64,000 nt of DNA from Ignavibacteria bacterium (GTDB lineage: Bacteria; Bacteroidota; Ignavibacteria; UBA10030): the NCBI GenBank assembly GCA_016873805.1, contig VGVZ01000015.1, positions 1-64,000 on the forward strand. Direction: 5' to 3'. The position numbers were made by a program, and so were the translations under genes. Shown piece by piece: positions 22,755 to 32,961 of this stretch. Position 1 is the first letter of the stretch. Each line of letters opens with the position of its first letter. The notes under the pieces were generated by a model. That model worked only from the letters and a program-made list of their open reading frames with translations. It did not search any database and was not told the DNA's origin.

Positions 22755-23607
22755 GCGGGGGCCCGCTATTTCCACCAGTCACAACTACTCTTCATCGGAT
22801 CTTTGAAATGGCGTTGGAGCAGATTCTTACATCGAGGTGAAAGGCACTGAAGCTCGATATGTCTCCTTTGAAAGACCTAGCATCGGCTGAAGAGGCCAAG
22901 TTTCCATCGCTCACGTTTTCTTCCTGGGGAAGGAAGTAGATTCAACCGTTCACTCCAAACACACTTTGTCCGTTTCCCTACGATCAGTTGGCATATTGGA
23001 CCCAGTTTCATTTGAAGAGTTTTTGGGTTAATTTTATGATGGTCGTCTCATAGGTTGAAGGATTCAATATAGGAGAGGCAAGGCCGCTGGCCAACTGTAA
23101 AGAACGCTAAGGTCGTGGTACGTTTTCATCGGCGAGTATCAATTGATACTGTAAGCCGGGAGTATGCGGTGACTTTAGAGGCCCCCAACCGATGGCGAGA
23201 GTACCTCATCACGGCAGGGATTCCTAGACTGGAAGGGAACACCCTGGAGCAGATACGCGTTACTGCCCCAGAGAAGAATATCGGGTAGCAGACAATGGAG
23301 TCATCTAGCGCCTTCACCGCACACTTCACGAGCAGGCCTTCCACATCAACCACCTCGACACAATCGAAGAAGCGCCATGTCAGGCTTTAACCTTGACCAC
23401 AACCGAGCTGGCCCTGTGAATCACATGCAAGTACTCGCCTCTCGCCATCTGATCTGAGCTCCAACATGTTCTCATCAAAAGTGCCTGACTAATTGGGGCA
23501 TACAGCAGCAAAGGCCTGAATAGGACAAACCGGTTTTGCTGGCGTACCACACTTTACGGAGATGCTGTCAATAGACCTCTAATTCAATCAGGCAACGGAG
23601 GTGTGCC
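22755..23607. other. Gene-poor, apparently decayed region
   Basis: No intact gene is visible. One plus-strand frame gives coding-like stretches broken by stops (SYIEVKGTEARYVSFERPS from 22826; HVFFLGKEVDSTVHS). A short frame beginning near 23115 reads VRFHRRVSIDTVSREYAVTL then EAPNRWREYLITAGI and stops at 23288. These may be remnants of one lost gene, but I recognise no family. The last ~30 bp hold the ribosome site of the next gene. Confidence 0.4.
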
Positions 23608-24144
23608 ATGACACCAAGAACCGTTCTCAGCCTTATCACATTTTCTCTACTTACTTGCTCATTGTTATACTGCCAATCAAAAAAACTCCCGGCGTTTCCT
23701 GAGGTCAGCGCTGACGATCGTTGGGCACGAGCGCAAAATCACGCGGACGTTTTCTACGTGGCTGGCATCGGATATGCAAAGTCCATCGGGCGCACGCCTA
23801 ATGATTTCTTTAGGTACTGCGTAAAGACTTTTGCCCCCAGCTGGGGCAAACCAGACTCCGTCAAGCCAATACAATTTCTACGTGGAATGCAGAGAAGTTT
23901 GTTAGCGTTCTCAGATTGGAAGTTTGAACTTATTGATTATCGTGAAGACAGAGTCACTGGAAGATTTAGTCGTCCATATGTTTCACGCCTTTTTGCAACC
24001 AATGCTTCATTCTATGGCGTGACGTTGGATGAATATGAGGCAGGCTTGAGGACTTTCCACCGAGGTTTATGCGACTACTTGCACCTCAAATACGAGGACA
24101 AAGTCGAGCGTGATTGGATCACCTTCACTATCTCCAAGAAATGA
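23608..24144 (+). CDS. Exported protein of unknown function
   Basis: A 178-residue protein with a clear signal peptide (TVLSLITFSLLTCSLLYCQS). The mature part is mixed alpha/beta with aromatic-rich segments (HADVFYVAGIGYAKSIGRTP, GMQRSLLAFSDWKFELIDYR, GVTLDEYEAGLRTFH). A cysteine lies in the hydrophobic segment, but the flanks LLTC and LLYC are weak lipoboxes, so it could be a lipoprotein or a soluble periplasmic protein. GGAGGTGTG precedes the ATG, so translation is well supported. No family recognised. It stands alone between the decayed strip and a convergent three-gene operon. Confidence 0.7.
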   Translation: MTPRTVLSLITFSLLTCSLLYCQSKKLPAFPEVSADDRWARAQNHADVFYVAGIGYAKSIGRTPNDFFRYCVKTFAPSWGKPDSVKPIQFLRGMQRSLLAFSDWKFELIDYREDRVTGRFSRPYVSRLFATNASFYGVTLDEYEAGLRTFHRGLCDYLHLKYEDKVERDWITFTISKK

Positions 24145-24340
24145 GCACGCTTTTCTCTTTATCAATCTACGAACAATTGTTCGGTCGCTGGGAGTCTACG
24201 TTCGCGGATAACTTATGAGTTTCTCATGTTCAGGGAGAGATTGAAAAATGCTAGCGAGGCAACCTAGCCCCAGCACTTCGCAGTGCTAAACCTTGCTTGC
24301 GGAAGGTAGTCTTGGTGTCGCAGTGTGGATGAAATGATTT

Positions 24341-25435
24341 CTAGCCGCTCGCTTTTGAGGTCAATTTAAGAAGAGCGATTTGTTTCTGATCAGATTTGAG
24401 GTCAAGCCCTATGAAAAGAATGTCTTGAGCAGCACATAGAAGCCTTCCAGGAATCCTAATGTCAGAGGCGAGCAGCGTCCCATCCTTTGAGTACACGTTA
24501 AGGTAGCATTTCGAATTCGTGGATTTATCTTCCCCCTCAAAAAGGTTCACAAAGTAGGCAATAATGTAGTCATCCAGGACTCGTACTCCATTCATGTTTG
24601 ACCAAGTAGTCCGCCACTTCGCAGATTCCTCCTTCTCTCTCGGCATGGAATAAGTGGCAATCTTGAACTCGGGTGTAATTTGACCAAAAGTTCGCAAGGC
24701 GTCGCCACCCTTCGAGTAGCAGAATATTCGGAAGGAGTTGGCCTGAACCAAATAAACATTCCCTTCGCCGTCAATATCGAAGTGAACTTCAGGACTCAGT
24801 GGAGAAAGCTTTCTATACATCTCATCGAAGCTGCCGAAACGTTTCAAAAGGCGCTTGGTTGGCCAATCGTAGATCCCAACCATAGTTGATTTGTAGATCC
24901 CGTACATGGAAAGCCCTTTTTCGAGCACTCCAAGGAAAAGCTGACTTTTTGAAACGCGTACATAACCCATCACAAATACGCTTGCATTATCTGACAGACT
25001 GTCGACCAGAACGCCCCGCCGGTCAAACCTGTACACCGTGGCGTCTGACACATCACTTACATATATACTTCCCTTCTCATCATTCGTTATGGCGCTAATG
25101 ACCAAACGCCTATTACCTGCTCTGTGGGGATGTCGTATTACATATTGAAGAATTGCTTTCCTGTCGAAAACCTTCACAGTACCATCAAACCCATCCGCAA
25201 CATAGTAGCTCCCGCGCGAATCCACTACCAGATCCAAGAACATGCCAATCCGAGAGCTGTCGCTACCACCAAAGGTTAAGCGGTCTATTTCGGAAAGGAC
25301 TATATTGCCTTTTTGCAGATAATAAGGAATTGGGGAGATTTGATCTGCCTCTTCGTGCACTTCATACTTCTCCGAGCAACTTAATAGTAAAAACAGTGGA
25401 AAAGTCAACAAGACAAGGCCGCGGTTGGGTTTCAT
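24341..25435 (-). CDS. 6-bladed beta-propeller lipoprotein
   Basis: A 364-residue lipoprotein. The signal peptide ends LFLLLSC, a good lipobox, so Cys20 or so is the lipidated residue. The mature part has repeating blade motifs: FLDLVVDSRGSYYVADGFDG, VKVFDRKA, NDEKGSIYVSDVSDATVYRF, VHFDIDGEGNVYLVQ and YLNVYSKDGTLLASDIRI. This matches the NHL-like 6-bladed propellers common in Bacteroidota. Its ATG overlaps the stop of the upstream thioredoxin-like gene (ATGA), so they are translationally coupled. In other Bacteroidota such propellers sit beside tiny exported NVEALA-type peptides and redoxins, exactly the set seen here. Function of the set is unknown. Confidence 0.85.
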   Translation of the reverse strand: MKPNRGLVLLTFPLFLLLSCSEKYEVHEEADQISPIPYYLQKGNIVLSEIDRLTFGGSDSSRIGMFLDLVVDSRGSYYVADGFDGTVKVFDRKAILQYVIRHPHRAGNRRLVISAITNDEKGSIYVSDVSDATVYRFDRRGVLVDSLSDNASVFVMGYVRVSKSQLFLGVLEKGLSMYGIYKSTMVGIYDWPTKRLLKRFGSFDEMYRKLSPLSPEVHFDIDGEGNVYLVQANSFRIFCYSKGGDALRTFGQITPEFKIATYSMPREKEESAKWRTTWSNMNGVRVLDDYIIAYFVNLFEGEDKSTNSKCYLNVYSKDGTLLASDIRIPGRLLCAAQDILFIGLDLKSDQKQIALLKLTSKASG

Positions 25436-26049
25436 CTTTGCAGCAATTCCTTATGTATCCAGTTTTCCAGCTCTTGGCCAGCTTCCGAATTCGGGCGGAT
25501 TCCCATTGCCCCCTGCTGCATAAGATGACCGTCTAGGAAAACATATCTCATCGACAGATTCGTACGGCCCAAGATGTCCATTGTTGCTTCGCCGCTCGAA
25601 TCTTGAATAATAGGAAAACTCAACTGGTACATCCTGATGAGATCCTCTACCAGCGTTTGGCTTTCTGTTCGTGCAATTCCTACTACTACAAGATCACTAG
25701 AGAATTTTTGACGCATGAGACTCATGGTGATTAGTTCTTCCAGACAGCGCCAACAATCCAAAGGCGAAAAAGTCAAGACAATTACTACTTTAGGTTCAGC
25801 GTCGTAAAATCTGAGATCAGGCAGATGCTTTGACAACGCTTCGTAGAATCTGTGATTTGTACTTGCTCCCGTCAAATATGACAAAAGATGCCATCCGCCG
25901 ACTGTAAGAAGGAAGGAAGAGCCCACAATCAAAAGCTTCAAGCAAATGTCTCTAAACTTCGCCATCGGTGGGTGAGGTGGCCTATGCACGAGGACCAAGT
26001 ATGCTTGAACAAGCCCCCAGCCAAAATAGCTGGGGCGGGTGAATCTCAT
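25432..26049 (-). CDS. Membrane-anchored thioredoxin-like protein with CWRC site
   Basis: A 205-residue protein. A single membrane helix (LKLLIVGSSFLLTVGGWHLL) is followed by a thioredoxin-fold domain facing the periplasm: VVIVLTFSPLDCWRCLEEL holds the CxxC redox pair, and SSDLVVVGIARTES, FPIIQDSSGEATMDILG and RYVFLDGHL complete the redoxin core. The cis-proline usually found before the last strands is not obvious. I start at 26049 because this ATG overlaps the stop of the upstream peptide gene as ATGA; an internal ATG at 25965 would give a shorter N-terminus. It ends in an ATGA overlap with the propeller gene. A role in reducing or forming the disulfide of the co-encoded two-cysteine peptide is an attractive inference. 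Confidence 0.75.
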   Translation of the reverse strand: MRFTRPSYFGWGLVQAYLVLVHRPPHPPMAKFRDICLKLLIVGSSFLLTVGGWHLLSYLTGASTNHRFYEALSKHLPDLRFYDAEPKVVIVLTFSPLDCWRCLEELITMSLMRQKFSSDLVVVGIARTESQTLVEDLIRMYQLSFPIIQDSSGEATMDILGRTNLSMRYVFLDGHLMQQGAMGIRPNSEAGQELENWIHKELLQR

Positions 26050-26252
26050 GCTAGTACAATAGGTCCATAGGTGCAGTTCCAAGGTATGGGGTAACATATC
26101 CAATAACCAGGATTAACTGGATCTGGCCAGAGTGCATACAGATCTCCCACACCGTCCACAGCCCTAGCAGTGCTTGATGAGACCATCATCAACCCGAACG
26201 AAAAAGCTAGTCCGAGTCCCACCCCCAGCAACGCCATTCTGATCTTTTTCAT
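26046..26252 (-). CDS. Small exported two-cysteine peptide (NVEALA-like context)
   Basis: A 68-residue precursor. Residues 1-30 are a textbook signal sequence (MKKIRMALLGVGLGLAFSFG onward, ending SSSTARA). The mature ~38 residues (VDGVGDLYALWPDPVNPGYW then ICYPIPWNCTYGPIVLA) are rich in Pro, Trp and Tyr and hold two cysteines seven residues apart. GAGAGG lies 8 nt before the ATG and a strong promoter lies upstream. Its TGA overlaps the next ATG. It resembles, in size and company, the NVEALA / GG-type small peptides of Bacteroidota that accompany 6-bladed propellers, but lacks the literal NVEALA motif. Whether it is a signal, a bacteriocin-like product or a structural peptide is unknown. Confidence 0.75.
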   Translation of the reverse strand: MKKIRMALLGVGLGLAFSFGLMMVSSSTARAVDGVGDLYALWPDPVNPGYWICYPIPWNCTYGPIVLA

Positions 26253-26303
26253 GGCACACCTCTCGATGTTGATTTCTTGGATTTATTCAATTAAGTTCGT
26301 TGG

Positions 26304-26332
26304 TATATACGGAATTCACGATCTCAAGTCAA
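26304..26332 (-). promoter_or_regulatory. Promoter of the peptide-redoxin-propeller operon
   Basis: On the minus strand: TTGACT (26327-26332), exactly 17 bp, then TATATA (26304-26309). This is one of the best sigma-70-like promoters in the window. Transcription would start near 26297, giving a 45-nt leader to the peptide ATG. Confidence 0.6.
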
Positions 26333-26431
26333 GAAGAAAAAACAAAAAAAGATCTCTCACTTGATGGCTGTTCATTAACCAGGGCGTCGTTACTCACCAG
26401 CGGGTGAAGCTAGAATCGATTGGTTCGACTG

Positions 26432-27175
26432 ATGTCCAAAAAGATGAAACTGGGTGCTAGAATCGCAAACGTGCTTGTTGAGCCGTCTGAGGCATTCAAT
26501 GACATATTTGATGCAAGCGCGAAAACTCGCGTTTGGCTGTATCCCCTCGTTTTGTCGCTATTGTTGGTACCCGTTTGGAACTACGTGATCCTCAATGACG
26601 AACTGCTCAGCAAACAAGTGTACGAATTGCGGCAGAAGCAATTTAGAACCACCGCGGGGACCATGCGCGGGATGAACGACGGCTCTGCAACCTCTGAAGA
26701 GTCAACTACCCGACTTCGATTCCGCAGGCTCTTTGTTATGTTTTCGATCCTCGGAATATCTAAGGAAATAGTCTATTTCTTTGGTGCCGTTTTTTTTCTG
26801 TCGCTTTTTGGAAGGGTTTTTCTTCATATCAAAACGACATTCCATGACTCTTTCGCGCTGTACGGTTTGTCGATGTGGATTGACATACTTGGTTCGATCA
26901 TTGCGCTGTTAATGGTCAAAGCGTTCGGTTCCCTTAGCGCCAAACCCACAGCGGCTGCTCTCTTCTTCAGTACTTATGATCCATCCATTACAATCCATAG
27001 AATACTCACAGAATTCAATTTTTTCTCTGTTTGGCAATCTTCCGTAATTGGGATCGGATTAGCCAAACTATCGGGGAAGAAGAGGCTAGTCGCGGTCAGC
27101 TTAGTTGTCTCTGGATGGGCACTTTGGGTGTTGATCTCGGCAAAACTGAGAATAACCACAATCACCGCTCCCTGA
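26432..27175 (+). CDS. Yip1-like multi-helix membrane protein
   Basis: A 247-residue inner-membrane protein with about five hydrophobic helices (LYPLVLSLLLVPVWNYVIL; IVYFFGAVFFLSLFGRVF; YGLSMWIDILGSIIALLMV; SVWQSSVIGIGLAKLSG; VSLVVSGWALWVLISAKL). The N-terminal NVLVEPSEAFNDIFDASAK and the helix order fit the bacterial Yip1-domain family, whose members have no defined activity. ATG 26432 is preferred over an upstream TTG. No clear ribosome site. It is divergent from the peptide operon and may share its regulatory gap. Assignment rests on topology and the N-terminal motif only. Confidence 0.65.
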   Translation: MSKKMKLGARIANVLVEPSEAFNDIFDASAKTRVWLYPLVLSLLLVPVWNYVILNDELLSKQVYELRQKQFRTTAGTMRGMNDGSATSEESTTRLRFRRLFVMFSILGISKEIVYFFGAVFFLSLFGRVFLHIKTTFHDSFALYGLSMWIDILGSIIALLMVKAFGSLSAKPTAAALFFSTYDPSITIHRILTEFNFFSVWQSSVIGIGLAKLSGKKRLVAVSLVVSGWALWVLISAKLRITTITAP

Positions 27176-27653
27176 AGCGGGCGTTTAAGACGGGCATCGC
27201 GAATTCCCTTGATACTCAGAATCTTGGTAAAGTCCAGAGATCATTCTGAAGAATCATACCGACAAAACTCACAACAGACACCTTGAATTCGCTCCACATG
27301 TTCGAGTCCGCGGAAATTTCCTAAAGTGTTGCTTCCAATATGTGCATCGACGTGGCAAACACGCGAAAGCTAGCCCGGTCTCGGTTCCGCCCGAGTACCC
27401 GGTCAAAGATCCCATCCCACCTTGCCGCTGACAAACAGCTGTCGACATTTGTCAAGACCCACAATTGAGAGATTTTATAGTAGAAAATGCTCTCAGACTT
27501 GCGGTTGCAATCATATTGCAGCGAGAACTCTCCTTTGCGAGAAGAAAAAGGAGGGATTGAGAAATGCGATCTCGAACTCCATGAACAAAACATTCGAGGA
27601 AGATCTTACATCGAGGTGACAAAATTTCGTGTCCTAGACTAGATTTGGGGTCA
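27176..27653. other. Gap without a supported gene
   Basis: Frames on both strands are short and lack ribosome sites or recognisable motifs. A 16-bp stretch, TCTTACATCGAGGTGA (27604-27619), is identical to 22826-22841, hinting that this gap and the decayed region at 22.8 kb share ancestry. The part next to 27654 must carry the lnt leader. Confidence 0.4.
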
Positions 27654-29324
27654 ATGAACGCCAGCCGCATCCAAGGAGACCAATCCTGGAAGATGTTGGT
27701 CAGATTCACAACAGGTTTGGCAATTCTGTCGGGATTATTACTCGGAGCGGCTTTTCCACCATCTCCGCTTTATTTTCTTGCGTATGTGGCGCTAATTCCA
27801 TTTTTGATCCTGCTCGAACGTCTAGAAACCTATAGACAAGTATTGTTCTATACCTATCTGATGGCGTTGGCGTTTCATCTGGTCACGTTGTACTGGGTGG
27901 GTGGATTTACACACCGCAGAGATCCCTATTTGATGGTGATGGGCACGGCACTGGTTCTTTTTCATCCAACATTCTACTGGCTCATCACAATTGTGTATTT
28001 CTTTTTACAAAAACACGCTGGTGTAACAGCGGGACGTGTGGCGTTTCCGTTCCTCTGGACTTCGTACGACTATCTCCACTCGCTTTCAGATTTTTCCCCT
28101 TGGATTTCCATCGGCAACAGCCAAGCATATAACCTCTACGGAATCCAAATCGCAGAATACACCTCCACGTACGGCCCTGGCTTGTTTGTTCTGATTATCA
28201 ACGTTCTCTTATCTGTTTTGCTTGCTCCCTTTTTCCGGAATACTAGATCCCTTTTTTCCCGTAATTCTCTAGTTGTAGCTACTGTGGTTGTTTTGTTCTA
28301 CGTTGGTCCTCTGTTCTACGGTATAATCGCTGTCAAAGATCGGGGAATTCCTCCTTCAAGAGATAGACTACGCGTTGCCATCATTCAACCGAACATTGAT
28401 CCTTGGGAAAAATGGGGGTATCGTACGTTGAAGTGGAAATCCTTTCAAGACCAGTTGAGTTTGCTCCTGAACGAAAGCAAAGAAGTCGCTGCGAGGAACC
28501 CCGAGCTGATTGTTTGGCCAGAGACAGCAATTCCCTACGAAATCTTTTCATCGCGTCATTTTGTCGACTCGCTGACGTTGAGAAAAGAGCTGGATTCCAT
28601 TTGTGTCGCTGTATTCACCGGAATGCCCGCCGTGGAATCTTTCGATTCAGCTCATTCACCAGTGTCGGCAGTCGGAACTAGCCACGCAAATACTTTTTTC
28701 GAATACTATAACGCCGCAACGTTGATTGTTCCCCATCAACCACTCGGCCAAATCTACAAGAAGGTCGTACTGGTTCCCTTTGCTGAGAGAGTTCCATATG
28801 CAGAAACATTCCCATTTCTCGTTGACGTCTTCAAATGGAATGTTGGTACTGGCGCTTTGAACAAAGGGCAGAATCAAATCGTTTTTCAGCTGCCGTTGCG
28901 CTCGGGCGAGAACGCTCAGTTCTCGGGGGTGATTTGTTTTGAGTCAGTTTATCCTAACTTCGTCCGGACATTTGTGGACCGAGGGGCACAGTTGTTGCTA
29001 GTGATTACCAATGACAGTTGGTGGGGAAATACATCGGGCGCATACCAGCATGCTGCCTACGCGTCGTTTCGGGCTATTGAAAATCGACGGTGGATAGTCC
29101 GGTGTGCCAACGGTGGCATCTCTTCTTTCGTCGACCCGACAGGGATTGTACGCGAGTCAACAAAGATGTATCTGCAGACAAGCTTGGTGAGCGATTTGAA
29201 TCTTTCAAATGAGAGGACATTCTATGCCAGACATGGAGATCTTTTTGCACAACTCTGTGTGCTCTGCTCAGCATCAATTTTCGTCATAGTTATGGCTGGA
29301 AAACTCCTACGGAAAAGAACATAG
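27654..29324 (+). CDS. lnt: Apolipoprotein N-acyltransferase
   Basis: A 556-residue inner-membrane enzyme that adds the third acyl chain to the N-terminal cysteine of lipoproteins. Six or seven N-terminal helices (to about residue 225) precede a periplasmic nitrilase-fold domain. The catalytic triad is visible: Glu290 in VWPETAIP, Lys370 in YKKVVLVPFAE and Cys428 in GVICFES. The ending ITNDSWWG...QHAAYASFRAIENRRWIVR is canonical. A final membrane helix closes the protein. ATG 27654 is chosen over a TTG at 27645; the ribosome site is weak. Many lipoproteins in this window would be its substrates. GC content is lower here than in the 30-43 kb region. Confidence 0.92.
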   Translation: MNASRIQGDQSWKMLVRFTTGLAILSGLLLGAAFPPSPLYFLAYVALIPFLILLERLETYRQVLFYTYLMALAFHLVTLYWVGGFTHRRDPYLMVMGTALVLFHPTFYWLITIVYFFLQKHAGVTAGRVAFPFLWTSYDYLHSLSDFSPWISIGNSQAYNLYGIQIAEYTSTYGPGLFVLIINVLLSVLLAPFFRNTRSLFSRNSLVVATVVVLFYVGPLFYGIIAVKDRGIPPSRDRLRVAIIQPNIDPWEKWGYRTLKWKSFQDQLSLLLNESKEVAARNPELIVWPETAIPYEIFSSRHFVDSLTLRKELDSICVAVFTGMPAVESFDSAHSPVSAVGTSHANTFFEYYNAATLIVPHQPLGQIYKKVVLVPFAERVPYAETFPFLVDVFKWNVGTGALNKGQNQIVFQLPLRSGENAQFSGVICFESVYPNFVRTFVDRGAQLLLVITNDSWWGNTSGAYQHAAYASFRAIENRRWIVRCANGGISSFVDPTGIVRESTKMYLQTSLVSDLNLSNERTFYARHGDLFAQLCVLCSASIFVIVMAGKLLRKRT

Positions 29325-30230
29325 AGGTGGTATCGATGACGTTTTGCGGAAATTCGAATTGCAGATCTTCTTGTCGTAATGCTTCTGGTTCCAGCGTCTA
29401 TTGCTTTTGCACTACGCTACTCCTTTTGGCTCACTGGAGCGACTTCGCTCGAGGGGATCGTGGCTTGTATTCTTGAATCTCTGCCAATTGAGAAATTCCT
29501 TGAGTTCGAGCAACATCTTCTCACTGCGAGAGAAGGGTTCAGTTTGTCAAGAGTAACTACTCAGGGCACGATTCCAATCGGAGATGATAATGTCAAGAGT
29601 TATGTGTAAAAGCAGCTGGGCGATTCTTCGTTGAGATCGAGCACCTGCTACAAAAAGAAACGGCAGCCACAGAAGTTGTGACTGCCGGAAGAAGCGAATT
29701 CCCTTGATCTCACGCTGAAGCAGAAGGGCCAAACCGAGCCCCAGCGGCACTTCGATCGCTATCACCGTGAGGGCGTACAGGAGCGTGAGTCCCAACGATT
29801 CCCAGAAATCCACACTCTGCAACAGAACGAGGTAGTTTTTCAAACCGACGAAATTGAGGACGGGCGAGATGAGATTGTAGTCACTTCAAGCCTGTATCAT
29901 CCCCTCCCTCAAAACAGTGGGAAGTAGTCGTGAGGGAGACGAATCTTACTCTCCCCTTCAAATTCACGACCGACCTCTTCCAGCTTCTCGCAAGAGTAGT
30001 TTGTTTCGACACTGCGCGGAATCAATTCATTGTTGAAGATATTCATTGTTGGAATTGCTAATTATCCCCTCCAGCGATCAGAGAGCCCTGAAATTCGCGC
30101 CGGCCATATCAGGTCTCGAACCAGCTTTTCGACTTACCCTGAGGCGATCGATTACTATATGGGTACGTACTTCCAGATCTCCCGTCACCGATCACGGACA
30201 CCATTGACTTCCTGACGAAGAACGTACAGA
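29325..30230. other. Relic region after lnt
   Basis: About 900 bp with fragments but no intact gene. A plus-strand frame from ~29351 reads IRIADLLVVMLLVPASIAFA then RYSFWLTGATS, which looks like the start of a membrane protein, but loses hydrophobic character and stops at 29609. A minus-strand transporter fragment overlaps it (see 29547-29885). From 29886 to 30230 short frames such as STYPEAIDYYMGTYFQISRH suggest other debris. Confidence 0.4.
29547..29885 (-). pseudogene. Fragment of a sugar ABC-transporter permease (MalF/UgpA type)
   Basis: The minus-strand frame opens right after a stop at 29886 with DYNLISPVLNFVGLKNYLVL, then LQSVDFWESLGLTLLYAL and VPLGLGLALLLQREIKGIRF. This is the conserved stretch after the first helix of MalF-like permeases (the FVGLxNY motif and the second helix). 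After FFRQSQ the frame no longer matches, pointing to a frameshift or junction near 29670. The EAA loop and the rest of the permease, plus the binding protein and ATPase, are missing. A dead fragment. Confidence 0.65.
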
Positions 30231-31421
30231 TCAGCGAAGCAGCAGCATCTTCGCCGTCTTGCTGTAACTTCCTGTCACCAGCTCGTAGAAGTACACTCCG
30301 CTGGCAACTTCACGACTCTGATTATCCCTTCCATTCCAGAGAACAGTGTGTGAACCCGCAGGCCGCTCGGTGTTCAAGAGCGTCCGAACAAGCTGACCCA
30401 TTGTGTTGTACACCGACAACACCACATATTCCCGCCGTGGAATTTCGAATGCGATCGCCGTTGAAGGATTGAACGGATTGGGATAGTTCTGGAACAGCGC
30501 ATACGTCGCGGCTACGGGCGGTTGATCATCAATAGCTGTTAGAGACCCATTGGAGGTCCCGCGCGTCCGTCTATTGAGAAGCTGCCACGCCCCTCCATCT
30601 CCGAGCCGACCGTAGCTTTGAGAGGTATCCATTGCGGCAAAGGTGATACTGTCGATAATTGCCCCCGCAGCGTTCTCGAGCCAAACGGTTTCTCCGCCAC
30701 TGGAGAGACCAAAACCACTCGGATCAATCGTCGTGCTGATGTCGGTGACAACCACGTAGAATCCCTTTGCCGGAATGGTTGTCCCTGCAGCGAACGTCAT
30801 TTTAGGCTTCGTGCCGCCCTGACCCCCATTGTCATAGATCTTGTAACCTGCAATGTTGAGGAGAGCCGTTGTGGTGTTGTAGAGCTCGATCCAGTCCGGG
30901 TCAGCTGTAGTCCCCCTTGAGTAGATTTCATTCATGAGTACGAGGGAATTGGACAATCCGCGCGAGATTGGAGTTCGAAGACCCCAGGAACCTCCATCGG
31001 GAAGCCGGCCATACGTCTGACTGGTGTCCATGGCGGGGAAGGTAACGCTGTCGATAATGGAACCCGACGCATTTTCGAGCCATACTTTTTCTCCGGTACT
31101 CGATAGACCGAAACCACTTGGGTCAACGGACGTGCTGATGTCTGTTACAATTACGAAGAATCCTTTCGCGGGGATGACTGTCCCCGATGGAAATGTCATC
31201 TTCGGCTTCGATCCTGACTCCCCGCCATTGTCATAGATCTTGTAGCCACTGATGTCGACCTGACCATTGGATCCGTTATGCAGCTCGATCCAGTCAGGAG
31301 CCGCGGTCGTGCCGCGCGAGTAGATCTCGTTCATCTTCACCGCTGATGTCTGTGCGATTCCCCACGCACTGAGCAGACTCGCGGCAAAGATCACGAGAAA
31401 CAGTAAACGAACGAGTTTCAT
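30231..31421 (-). CDS. Secreted double lamin-tail-domain protein with T9SS sorting domain
   Basis: A 396-residue exported protein. Signal peptide ending LLSAWGIAQ; then two tandem lamin-tail domains (residues ~27-155 and ~165-290), each opening MNEIYSRGTTA.PDWIEL and containing ISGYKIYDNGG or IAGYKIYDNGG, TDIS.T.DPSGFGLSS and AMDTSQ.YGRL; then a T9SS domain (QNYPNPFNPSTAIAFEI, GVYFYELVTG, KMLLLR). Lamin-tail folds in secreted bacterial proteins usually mediate binding or anchoring, often beside nucleases or phosphatases. AAGGAG precedes the ATG at 31421. It is last in the minus-strand series following the phosphate porin. The two domains are about as alike to each other as to the lipoprotein at 32.3 kb, so all three arose by duplication. 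Confidence 0.88.
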   Translation of the reverse strand: MKLVRLLFLVIFAASLLSAWGIAQTSAVKMNEIYSRGTTAAPDWIELHNGSNGQVDISGYKIYDNGGESGSKPKMTFPSGTVIPAKGFFVIVTDISTSVDPSGFGLSSTGEKVWLENASGSIIDSVTFPAMDTSQTYGRLPDGGSWGLRTPISRGLSNSLVLMNEIYSRGTTADPDWIELYNTTTALLNIAGYKIYDNGGQGGTKPKMTFAAGTTIPAKGFYVVVTDISTTIDPSGFGLSSGGETVWLENAAGAIIDSITFAAMDTSQSYGRLGDGGAWQLLNRRTRGTSNGSLTAIDDQPPVAATYALFQNYPNPFNPSTAIAFEIPRREYVVLSVYNTMGQLVRTLLNTERPAGSHTVLWNGRDNQSREVASGVYFYELVTGSYSKTAKMLLLR

Positions 31422-31514
31422 AATGACTCCTTTGATATGGTGGGTAGCTTTGTGAAGCATATTGTTAGACACGCCGCACACGGTCAGCATGGTACGATCT
31501 TCCACGCAGAGACG

Positions 31515-32324: not shown

Positions 32325-32828
32325 TCACTTGTTTGCAGCACCTTTGGTCATGTTGGATGTCAATGTCCACGTACCGCCATCAGGAATTCTGCTGTAGGTC
32401 TGCGTGACGTCCATCGCGGGGAAGACGACATTGTCGATCACCTTTCCTGAGGCGTCCTCCAGCCACACCTCTTCGCCGGCGCTCGACAGTCCGAACCCAC
32501 TTGGATCAATCGTCGTCGAAATATCCGTTACCACCACATAGTATCCTTTGGCAGAAATTGTCGTTCCCGCCGGGAGGGACATTTTCGGTTTCGTGCCGCC
32601 CTGGCCGCCACCATCATAGATCTTGTAACCGCTGATATTTACAGGGAACGACGAGGCATTATAGATCTCGATCCAATCGGGATCAGCGGGAACACCCCTG
32701 CTATAGATTTCATTCATCTTGATGACGGTCGGCTCAACCACGACGGGGGCAACAAACGGCTCGGGCCTGTCACAGGAGACGAAGACGAGCGGCGCAACAA
32801 ACAGAGTCAGAAGAAGATAGTTTTTCAT
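32325..32828 (-). CDS. Lamin-tail-domain lipoprotein
   Basis: A 167-residue lipoprotein (VAPLVFVSC lipobox, Cys about residue 19) carrying one lamin-tail domain: VIKMNEIYSRGVPADPDWIE, ISGYKIYDGGGQGGTKPKM, VVTDISTTIDPSGFGLSS, MDVTQTYSRIPDGG. It is nearly interchangeable with each domain of the secreted protein at 30.2 kb. AGGAG lies 8 nt before the ATG at 32828; longer upstream codons are not used. It follows the 38-residue lipoprotein gene by 16 nt. It probably sits on the outer membrane and holds a partner or substrate there. Confidence 0.85.
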   Translation of the reverse strand: MKNYLLLTLFVAPLVFVSCDRPEPFVAPVVVEPTVIKMNEIYSRGVPADPDWIEIYNASSFPVNISGYKIYDGGGQGGTKPKMSLPAGTTISAKGYYVVVTDISTTIDPSGFGLSSAGEEVWLEDASGKVIDNVVFPAMDVTQTYSRIPDGGTWTLTSNMTKGAANK

Positions 32829-32844
32829 GTTTTCACTCCTGGTC

Positions 32845-32961
32845 TTATAATGATGCCTGAATTCTTGTTGACGAGACGAGTGCAGGTTCCTCACGCGAAC
32901 ACGACGGGAGCGCCGCGAACATCAAGATCACCGAAAGTATTCTGAGCAGTCGATGGTTCAT
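32845..32961 (-). CDS. 38-residue mini-lipoprotein
   Basis: A very short gene with every mark of translation: AAGGAG 7 nt before the ATG, a positively charged start (MNHRLLRIL), a hydrophobic core and a lipobox ending ALPSC (Cys21), leaving a mature tail of only 18 residues (CSREEPALVSSTRIQASL). It fits tightly between the porin (stop 16 nt upstream) and the lamin-tail lipoprotein (start 16 nt downstream) on the same strand. Its product would be a lipid-anchored 18-residue peptide, probably outer-membrane. No family known to me. It could alternatively be the remnant of a longer lipoprotein. Confidence 0.62.
   Translation of the reverse strand: MNHRLLRILSVILMFAALPSCSREEPALVSSTRIQASL

Follow-up and report, generated by a model that had tools for sequence, protein, structure and literature searches.

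We analysed a 64,000-nucleotide stretch of an Ignavibacteria genome (contig VGVZ01000015.1; hereafter the window) and found on its minus strand, as the initial annotation had claimed, three consecutive genes encoding a small exported peptide with two cysteines, a thioredoxin-like protein (redoxin) and a propeller lipoprotein. Our preferred reading, to which we give a probability of roughly 45%, is that this operon encodes both an exported two-cysteine peptide and the machinery that handles it, a redoxin for disulfide exchange and a propeller for binding. This type of neighbourhood is real, occurs widely and is uncharacterised; the window operon represents a lean form of the NVEALA-like peptide/propeller/redoxin arrangement.

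Organisation of the operon

The peptide precursor (P0001; 26046..26252, minus strand) has 68 codons, and a Pfam search assigned it to no family at E<=1. Its N-terminus (MKKIRMALLGVGLGLAFSFGLMMVSSSTARA) is signal-sequence-like, basic-hydrophobic and ending in ARA. Residues 1-31 (26160-26252, minus strand) are the predicted signal, followed by a predicted mature part of 37 residues with exactly two cysteines (ICYPIPWNC); both the signal sequence and the cysteine count had been proposed at the outset. The second gene encodes a membrane-anchored TlpA/ResA-like redoxin of 205 aa (P0002; 25432..26049, minus strand) with a CWRC active-site motif at residues 99-102 (25744..25755, minus strand). The third encodes a protein of 364 aa (P0003; 24341..25435, minus strand) with a lipoprotein signal (LLLSC), which its profile relatives and a structure model indicate to be a six-bladed NHL/DUF5128-type beta-propeller.

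A ribosome-binding site, AGAGG, can be read directly six bases 5' of the peptide ATG (26259..26263, minus strand), in agreement with the initial annotation. The promoter-like sequence described there is also present (26304..26332, minus strand): TTGACT (26332-26327), a 17-base spacer and TATATA (26309-26304). Its description as "strong" did not hold, given that the conserved T at the end of the second hexamer is missing and that the site is at chance level: it was absent from the list produced by a consensus promoter scan, and about 5 promoter-like sites were expected by chance in dinucleotide shuffles of the region.

Both gene joints had been described as ATGA overlaps. The overlap of the redoxin TGA with the propeller ATG (AGATGA) was recovered, and at the other joint the TGA of the peptide gene shares bases with an ATG in the redoxin frame (GCATGA). 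The joint between peptide and redoxin is conditional on the redoxin start: the overlap needs the start MRFTRP, and an in-frame ATG 28 codons later (M29; MAKFRD) would place about 80 nt between the two genes. Those first 28 redoxin codons have the worst codon score in the operon.

The GC content of the operon was 46%, compared with 53% for the window. The wider segment at about 23500-29500, which takes in the operon together with the Lnt-like gene that follows it, falls to 45-48%, and this low-GC segment, with the whole three-gene unit, may have been acquired from elsewhere.

The peptide gene and its conservation

The codon score of the peptide ORF was borderline (0.006): spurious ORFs scored -0.134, with 11.5% of them reaching 0.006, and typical genes of the window scored 0.135. 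The redoxin (-0.015) and the propeller (0.044) were as atypical as the peptide. Only two further small ORFs in the 64 kb passed a filter for a signal sequence and two cysteines. In our judgement the peptide ORF is very probably a real gene.

We found no paralogue of the peptide in its own genome and no homologue among the peptides collected in this study, either by profile or by pairwise search. Its best pairwise match had an E value of 0.075, while decoys went down to 5e-4, and its score with the profile of the look-alike peptide group was equalled by 1389 of 2000 shuffles. The likeness of ICYPIPWNC to ICYDKPLNC of locus L027 likewise failed against shuffles. Neither PADLOC nor the bacteriocin families gave a match, nor did a search of a plasmid collection; an NCBIfam match to the Phr quorum peptides was below cut-off, covered the signal-sequence part only and was rejected. 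The precursor homology search that the initial annotation had called for thus returned no relative, and this peptide is not conserved. Because it joins no peptide family, its place in a larger system follows from position and design only, and since it has no homologue, selection on its two cysteines finds no support.

In 391 genomes of the class we detected one close redoxin/propeller pair, in a metagenome-assembled genome (MAG) of Melioribacter (PMDS01000073.1), a member of Ignavibacteria. The redoxin of this pair carries CWRC and the propeller is 40% identical to that of the window; the redoxin has no N-terminal anchor, and no peptide ORF lies ahead of it. A partial copy of a neighbouring lipoprotein start was found just upstream, which suggests that the locus has been rearranged. 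In its strict form, therefore, the proposed co-occurrence of the peptide with an orthologous redoxin-propeller pair failed at the sole close pair. With a peptide that has no relative and a nearest pair that has no peptide, this strict comparison argues against orthology. In 395 further genomes of the phylum, no close propeller homologue was found at E 1e-14 except the window itself, and an exact-pattern scan of genome contigs with the propeller recovered no relative; the seven-propeller alignment was too diverse for such a scan.

The redoxin and the propeller

The redoxin scored 24.4 bits against PF00578 (cut-off 26), and its best PDB sequence match was StoA (3erw). Structure modelling, limited to two rows, covered the redoxin and the propeller. 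The model of the redoxin was poor (mean pLDDT 58.3), with a core that matches ResA. The CWRC had been called exposed: the motif is present, but a model of such low confidence (mean pLDDT 58) does not carry the exposure. According to the alignment, the usual cis-Pro position reads S-M in the window redoxin and P in most relatives. Among the redoxins of the loci described below, 32 out of 33 have a CxxC, mostly with Pro at the cis-Pro position, and CWRC is common only to the window redoxin and that of the Melioribacter MAG. ResA/TlpA proteins reduce more often than they oxidise.

The propeller itself gave only a weak NHL match against Pfam, while its 40% identical homologue (L025/L083) scored 31.8 with PF17170, above the cut-off of 22.9. 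The propeller model was of moderate quality (pLDDT 63.9, pTM 0.70) and, as modelled, was closest to six-bladed NHL structures (Z about 22), with peptidyl-hydroxyglycine lyase at 20; methylamine dehydrogenase heavy chain was not among the 50 chains listed, which does not count as a sign of its absence. A common fold by itself assigns no function to the propeller or the redoxin.

A wider system in Ignavibacteria

A class-wide search with a propeller profile yielded 40 loci, which were fetched and read gene by gene. Excluding the window locus, a linked small ORF on the same strand, carrying a signal sequence and two or more cysteines in its mature part, was present at 35 of the 41 propellers adjacent to a redoxin and/or MauE gene and at 9 of the 36 other propellers (p 7e-8), or in 20/23 versus 2/20 when counted by locus (p 4e-7); these rates are possibly somewhat high because the profile included propellers from one peptide-bearing locus (A1). 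For several of the 9 peptide-linked "other" propellers, the locus has a redoxin or MauE gene further away. ORFs with a signal sequence and two cysteines within 400 bp of core genes were found 36 times on the same strand and once on the opposite strand, and the window peptide is likewise on the same strand and within 400 bp of the redoxin and propeller genes. In this wider form the expected co-occurrence was borne out: small exported cysteine peptides are tied to redoxin and propeller genes in related genomes.

RND transporter genes were present in 12 and MFP adaptor genes in 11 of the 24 loci of this kind, compared with 1 and 0 of 18 others. MauE was found in 16/24 versus 0/18, MauE having helped to define the groups, and in L014, L027, L028 and L029 it is fused to the redoxin. 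Searches of the window with local profiles detected no MauE, RND or MFP gene in cis. To our knowledge these MauE/redoxin/propeller/Cys-peptide/RND loci have no published name.

The mature parts of the peptides form families that extend across genera, well beyond shuffled decoys, with the cysteines kept: L014/L028/L029; L030/L041/L042; L062/L064 together with a peptide of the window genome (contig C2); and the two-Cys NVEALA peptides. The window operon shares the bacterial class and the core genes of the MauE/RND loci and differs from them in its lack of MauE, RND and MFP in cis and in a peptide that falls outside the families. The initial annotation had suggested that the window locus may define a system. 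Because its peptide is not conserved and the nearest pair has no peptide, it does not do so; it is instead a lean singleton of a larger system.

The genome of the window also holds a full locus of the same kind on contig C2. It begins with MFP and an AraC-type regulator, continues with a related pair of Cys peptides, a propeller, a redoxin-like protein with CDVC and RND, and then has another AraC-type regulator and a peptide with six cysteines; these genes lie at about 103650-112972 (L095:651-9973). A further propeller, MauE and another RND gene come next, in L081. Three MauE proteins are encoded elsewhere in the window genome. Should MauE or an exporter be required by the window operon, the presence of the full C2 locus in the same genome implies that they could be supplied in trans.

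Longer precursors were observed in L029, L030, L032, L041, L042, L043 and L044, with a leader like GDISLLGIxxxLFxxxxAxA before the cysteine part. These leaders are NVEALA-like in style; homology to NVEALA leaders was not supported (hhalign probability 1.2%). In L041, L042 and L043 a polytopic protein of 560-610 aa adjoins the system, and the L043 copy matches Wzy_C and has TPRs. This ligase-like gene may be compared with the Bacteroides thetaiotaomicron iron stimulon, whose table has the O-antigen ligase family gene BT0662 and the six-bladed propeller gene BT0664 (PMC10434189).

In genomes of the same family, a redoxin has two neighbours, a C39-like protein of the periplasm and a small, bacteriocin-like exported protein (GSGGEKPG / VVAGECKP), at L015:126-1810 and L017:959-5709, the latter also with an ABC transporter and a Yip1-like protein. 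These loci are a different peptide-redoxin system.

Comparison with NVEALA operons and other known systems

The comparison with NVEALA-type neighbourhoods was right in architecture. NVEALA (PF14055) loci are peptide-propeller-redoxin operons, and one of them (L079) has an ATGA overlap at both joints and a mature peptide with two cysteines. PF14055 was not found over cut-off in 148 genomes of the phylum, and it exceeded the cut-off in 4/395 genomes of a second class in the phylum, which we took to be Bacteroidia. A literature search for NVEALA, within the library used, returned no paper. Like NVEALA operons (PF14055/PF17170), the window operon tightly combines an exported Cys peptide, a propeller lipoprotein and a redoxin; unlike them, it has the order peptide-redoxin-propeller and no adjacent S26 signal peptidase or divergent regulator. 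The NVEALA motif is absent, as had been noted: the window sequence reads STARA/VDGVG and gives no PF14055 score. Possibly the motif acts as a dedicated site of cleavage. The NVEALA loci L072, L075 and L079 also have a gene for an S26 signal peptidase, one for a large lipoprotein (in L075 weakly similar to transglutaminases, Transglut_core) and one for a divergent membrane protein whose C-terminus is Trans_reg_C-like.

The mau cluster (MauA, MauB, MauD, MauE) likewise comprises a small disulfide protein, a propeller partner and a redoxin, and MauE occurs in the relatives of the window operon. At the window locus we found neither MauE nor MauA/MauB genes, and the propeller appears to be of the six-bladed NHL type, without dehydrogenase features. 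In candidate RiPP clusters of Streptomyces identified by decRiPPter, MauE/MauD-type redox genes are paired with a Cys-rich precursor and a precursor-modifying role was proposed for them; those clusters belong to another phylum, their precursors have at least 8 cysteines and, within the parts of the report drawn on here, a propeller or RND gene is not described (PMC7794033). For NHLRC2, it has been proposed that a protein ligand binds in the cleft formed by its TlpA-like domain and its NHL propeller (PMC6107167). NHLRC2/SOQ1 (PDB 6gc1, 7djm) also have a TlpA-like domain that works with a six-bladed NHL propeller; they differ in being a single fused chain, in their CCINC motif and in having no peptide gene. 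The small peptide TMcin acquires its only disulfide from a DsbA-like protein encoded in the same cluster (PMC13252029).

Proposed mechanism and alternative explanations

Under the handling-machinery reading, the peptide would be exported through its signal sequence. From its anchor in the inner membrane, and with its CWRC presumably towards the periplasm, the redoxin would exchange disulfides with the peptide, forming or correcting its Cys-Cys loop, as gene co-occurrence and fold class suggest, and could hand electrons to a general partner such as a MauE encoded elsewhere in the genome. The propeller lipoprotein may then bind the folded peptide as a receptor, escort or subunit. In fuller versions MauE is part of the cluster, with an RND transporter and adaptor adjoining, which suggests that the peptides, or their targets, cross the outer membrane. 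We count in favour of this reading the gene linkage, the strand bias, the CxxC of the redoxins, the association with MauE, RND and MFP, the peptide families, the second locus, the make-up of NVEALA operons and the published precedents (decRiPPter, NHLRC2, TMcin). Against it we count the orphan peptide, the nearest pair without a peptide, the loss of the cis-Pro, the redoxin score below the Pfam cut-off, the lack of MauE or a transporter in cis and the usual reducing role of ResA/TlpA proteins.

The same parts could be put together differently. Their match to the mau cluster (small Cys protein, propeller, MauD-like redoxin, MauE) and the ratio of about one peptide per propeller in many loci would suit a peptide that is a subunit capping or completing the propeller, as MauA does with MauB in methylamine dehydrogenase, with the redoxin as maturation factor. 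We consider this unlikely: the propeller appears from its model to be of the six-bladed NHL type and MauB is seven-bladed, the propeller alignment has no conserved catalytic set, the peptides vary more than a single enzyme subunit should, and RND and MFP neighbours would be unexpected. The linkage to RND and MFP and the diversity of the peptides also suit a secreted product better than redox or envelope-stress signalling, in which the peptide would be a regulator or sensor, the redoxin would set its thiol state and the propeller would read it out. Signalling is rather improbable on these grounds and because the window operon has no regulator, even though NVEALA loci have the divergent gene with a Trans_reg_C-like C-terminus and the fuller Ignavibacteria loci have small AraC-type regulators.

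Peptide diversity and RND/MFP linkage would equally fit an antibacterial peptide, with the propeller as immunity or receptor protein and the redoxin as disulfide maker, and tandem paralogous units (L014, L043, L044) and the bacteriocin-like C39/redoxin loci of same-family genomes point the same way; the lack of any PADLOC or bacteriocin family match speaks against it, and we regard toxin/immunity as quite improbable. Finally, the small ORF might not be a real gene, or might be unrelated to the redoxin/propeller pair behind it. It has no homologue, its codon score is borderline and the nearest pair has no peptide, but the ribosome site, signal sequence and ATGA overlap, the rarity of such ORFs in the window, and a strand and position as in dozens of loci make this explanation very improbable.

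Returning to the handling-machinery reading, we also entertain, more tentatively, a broader one: NVEALA operons and the Ignavibacteria loci could be a single unrecognised system for making and exporting disulfide peptides, with the window operon as a minimal version that has its partners elsewhere. Such a putative system would combine a precursor bearing a signal peptide, a redoxin with MauE and a propeller lipoprotein that serves as receptor or escort; in many cases an RND pump would be added for release.

Most small exported peptides of Bacteroidota carry no annotation. If redoxin, MauE and propeller are their handling machinery, then a large set of orphan genes (PF14055, PF17170, MauE copies lacking methylamine genes, orphan TlpA proteins and RND pumps) would come together in one testable system, and peptides locked by disulfides in nature could be sought there; for work on this larger peptide system the window operon offers a good starting point.

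Other genes near the operon

A divergent gene for a Yip1/YknW-like membrane protein starts some 180 bp upstream of that for the peptide (26432..27175, plus strand; NF052650, 31.6 bits against a cut-off of 110), which is given as context only. It was rejected as a part of the system after tblastn found no relative in any fetched locus outside the window genome; it has a short weak match to the Yip1-like gene in L017. Further along the window, two minus-strand genes (30231-31505 and 32325-32894) encode exported proteins with a common repeat (MNEIYSRGTxADPDWIELYN...), present in two copies and one copy, respectively.
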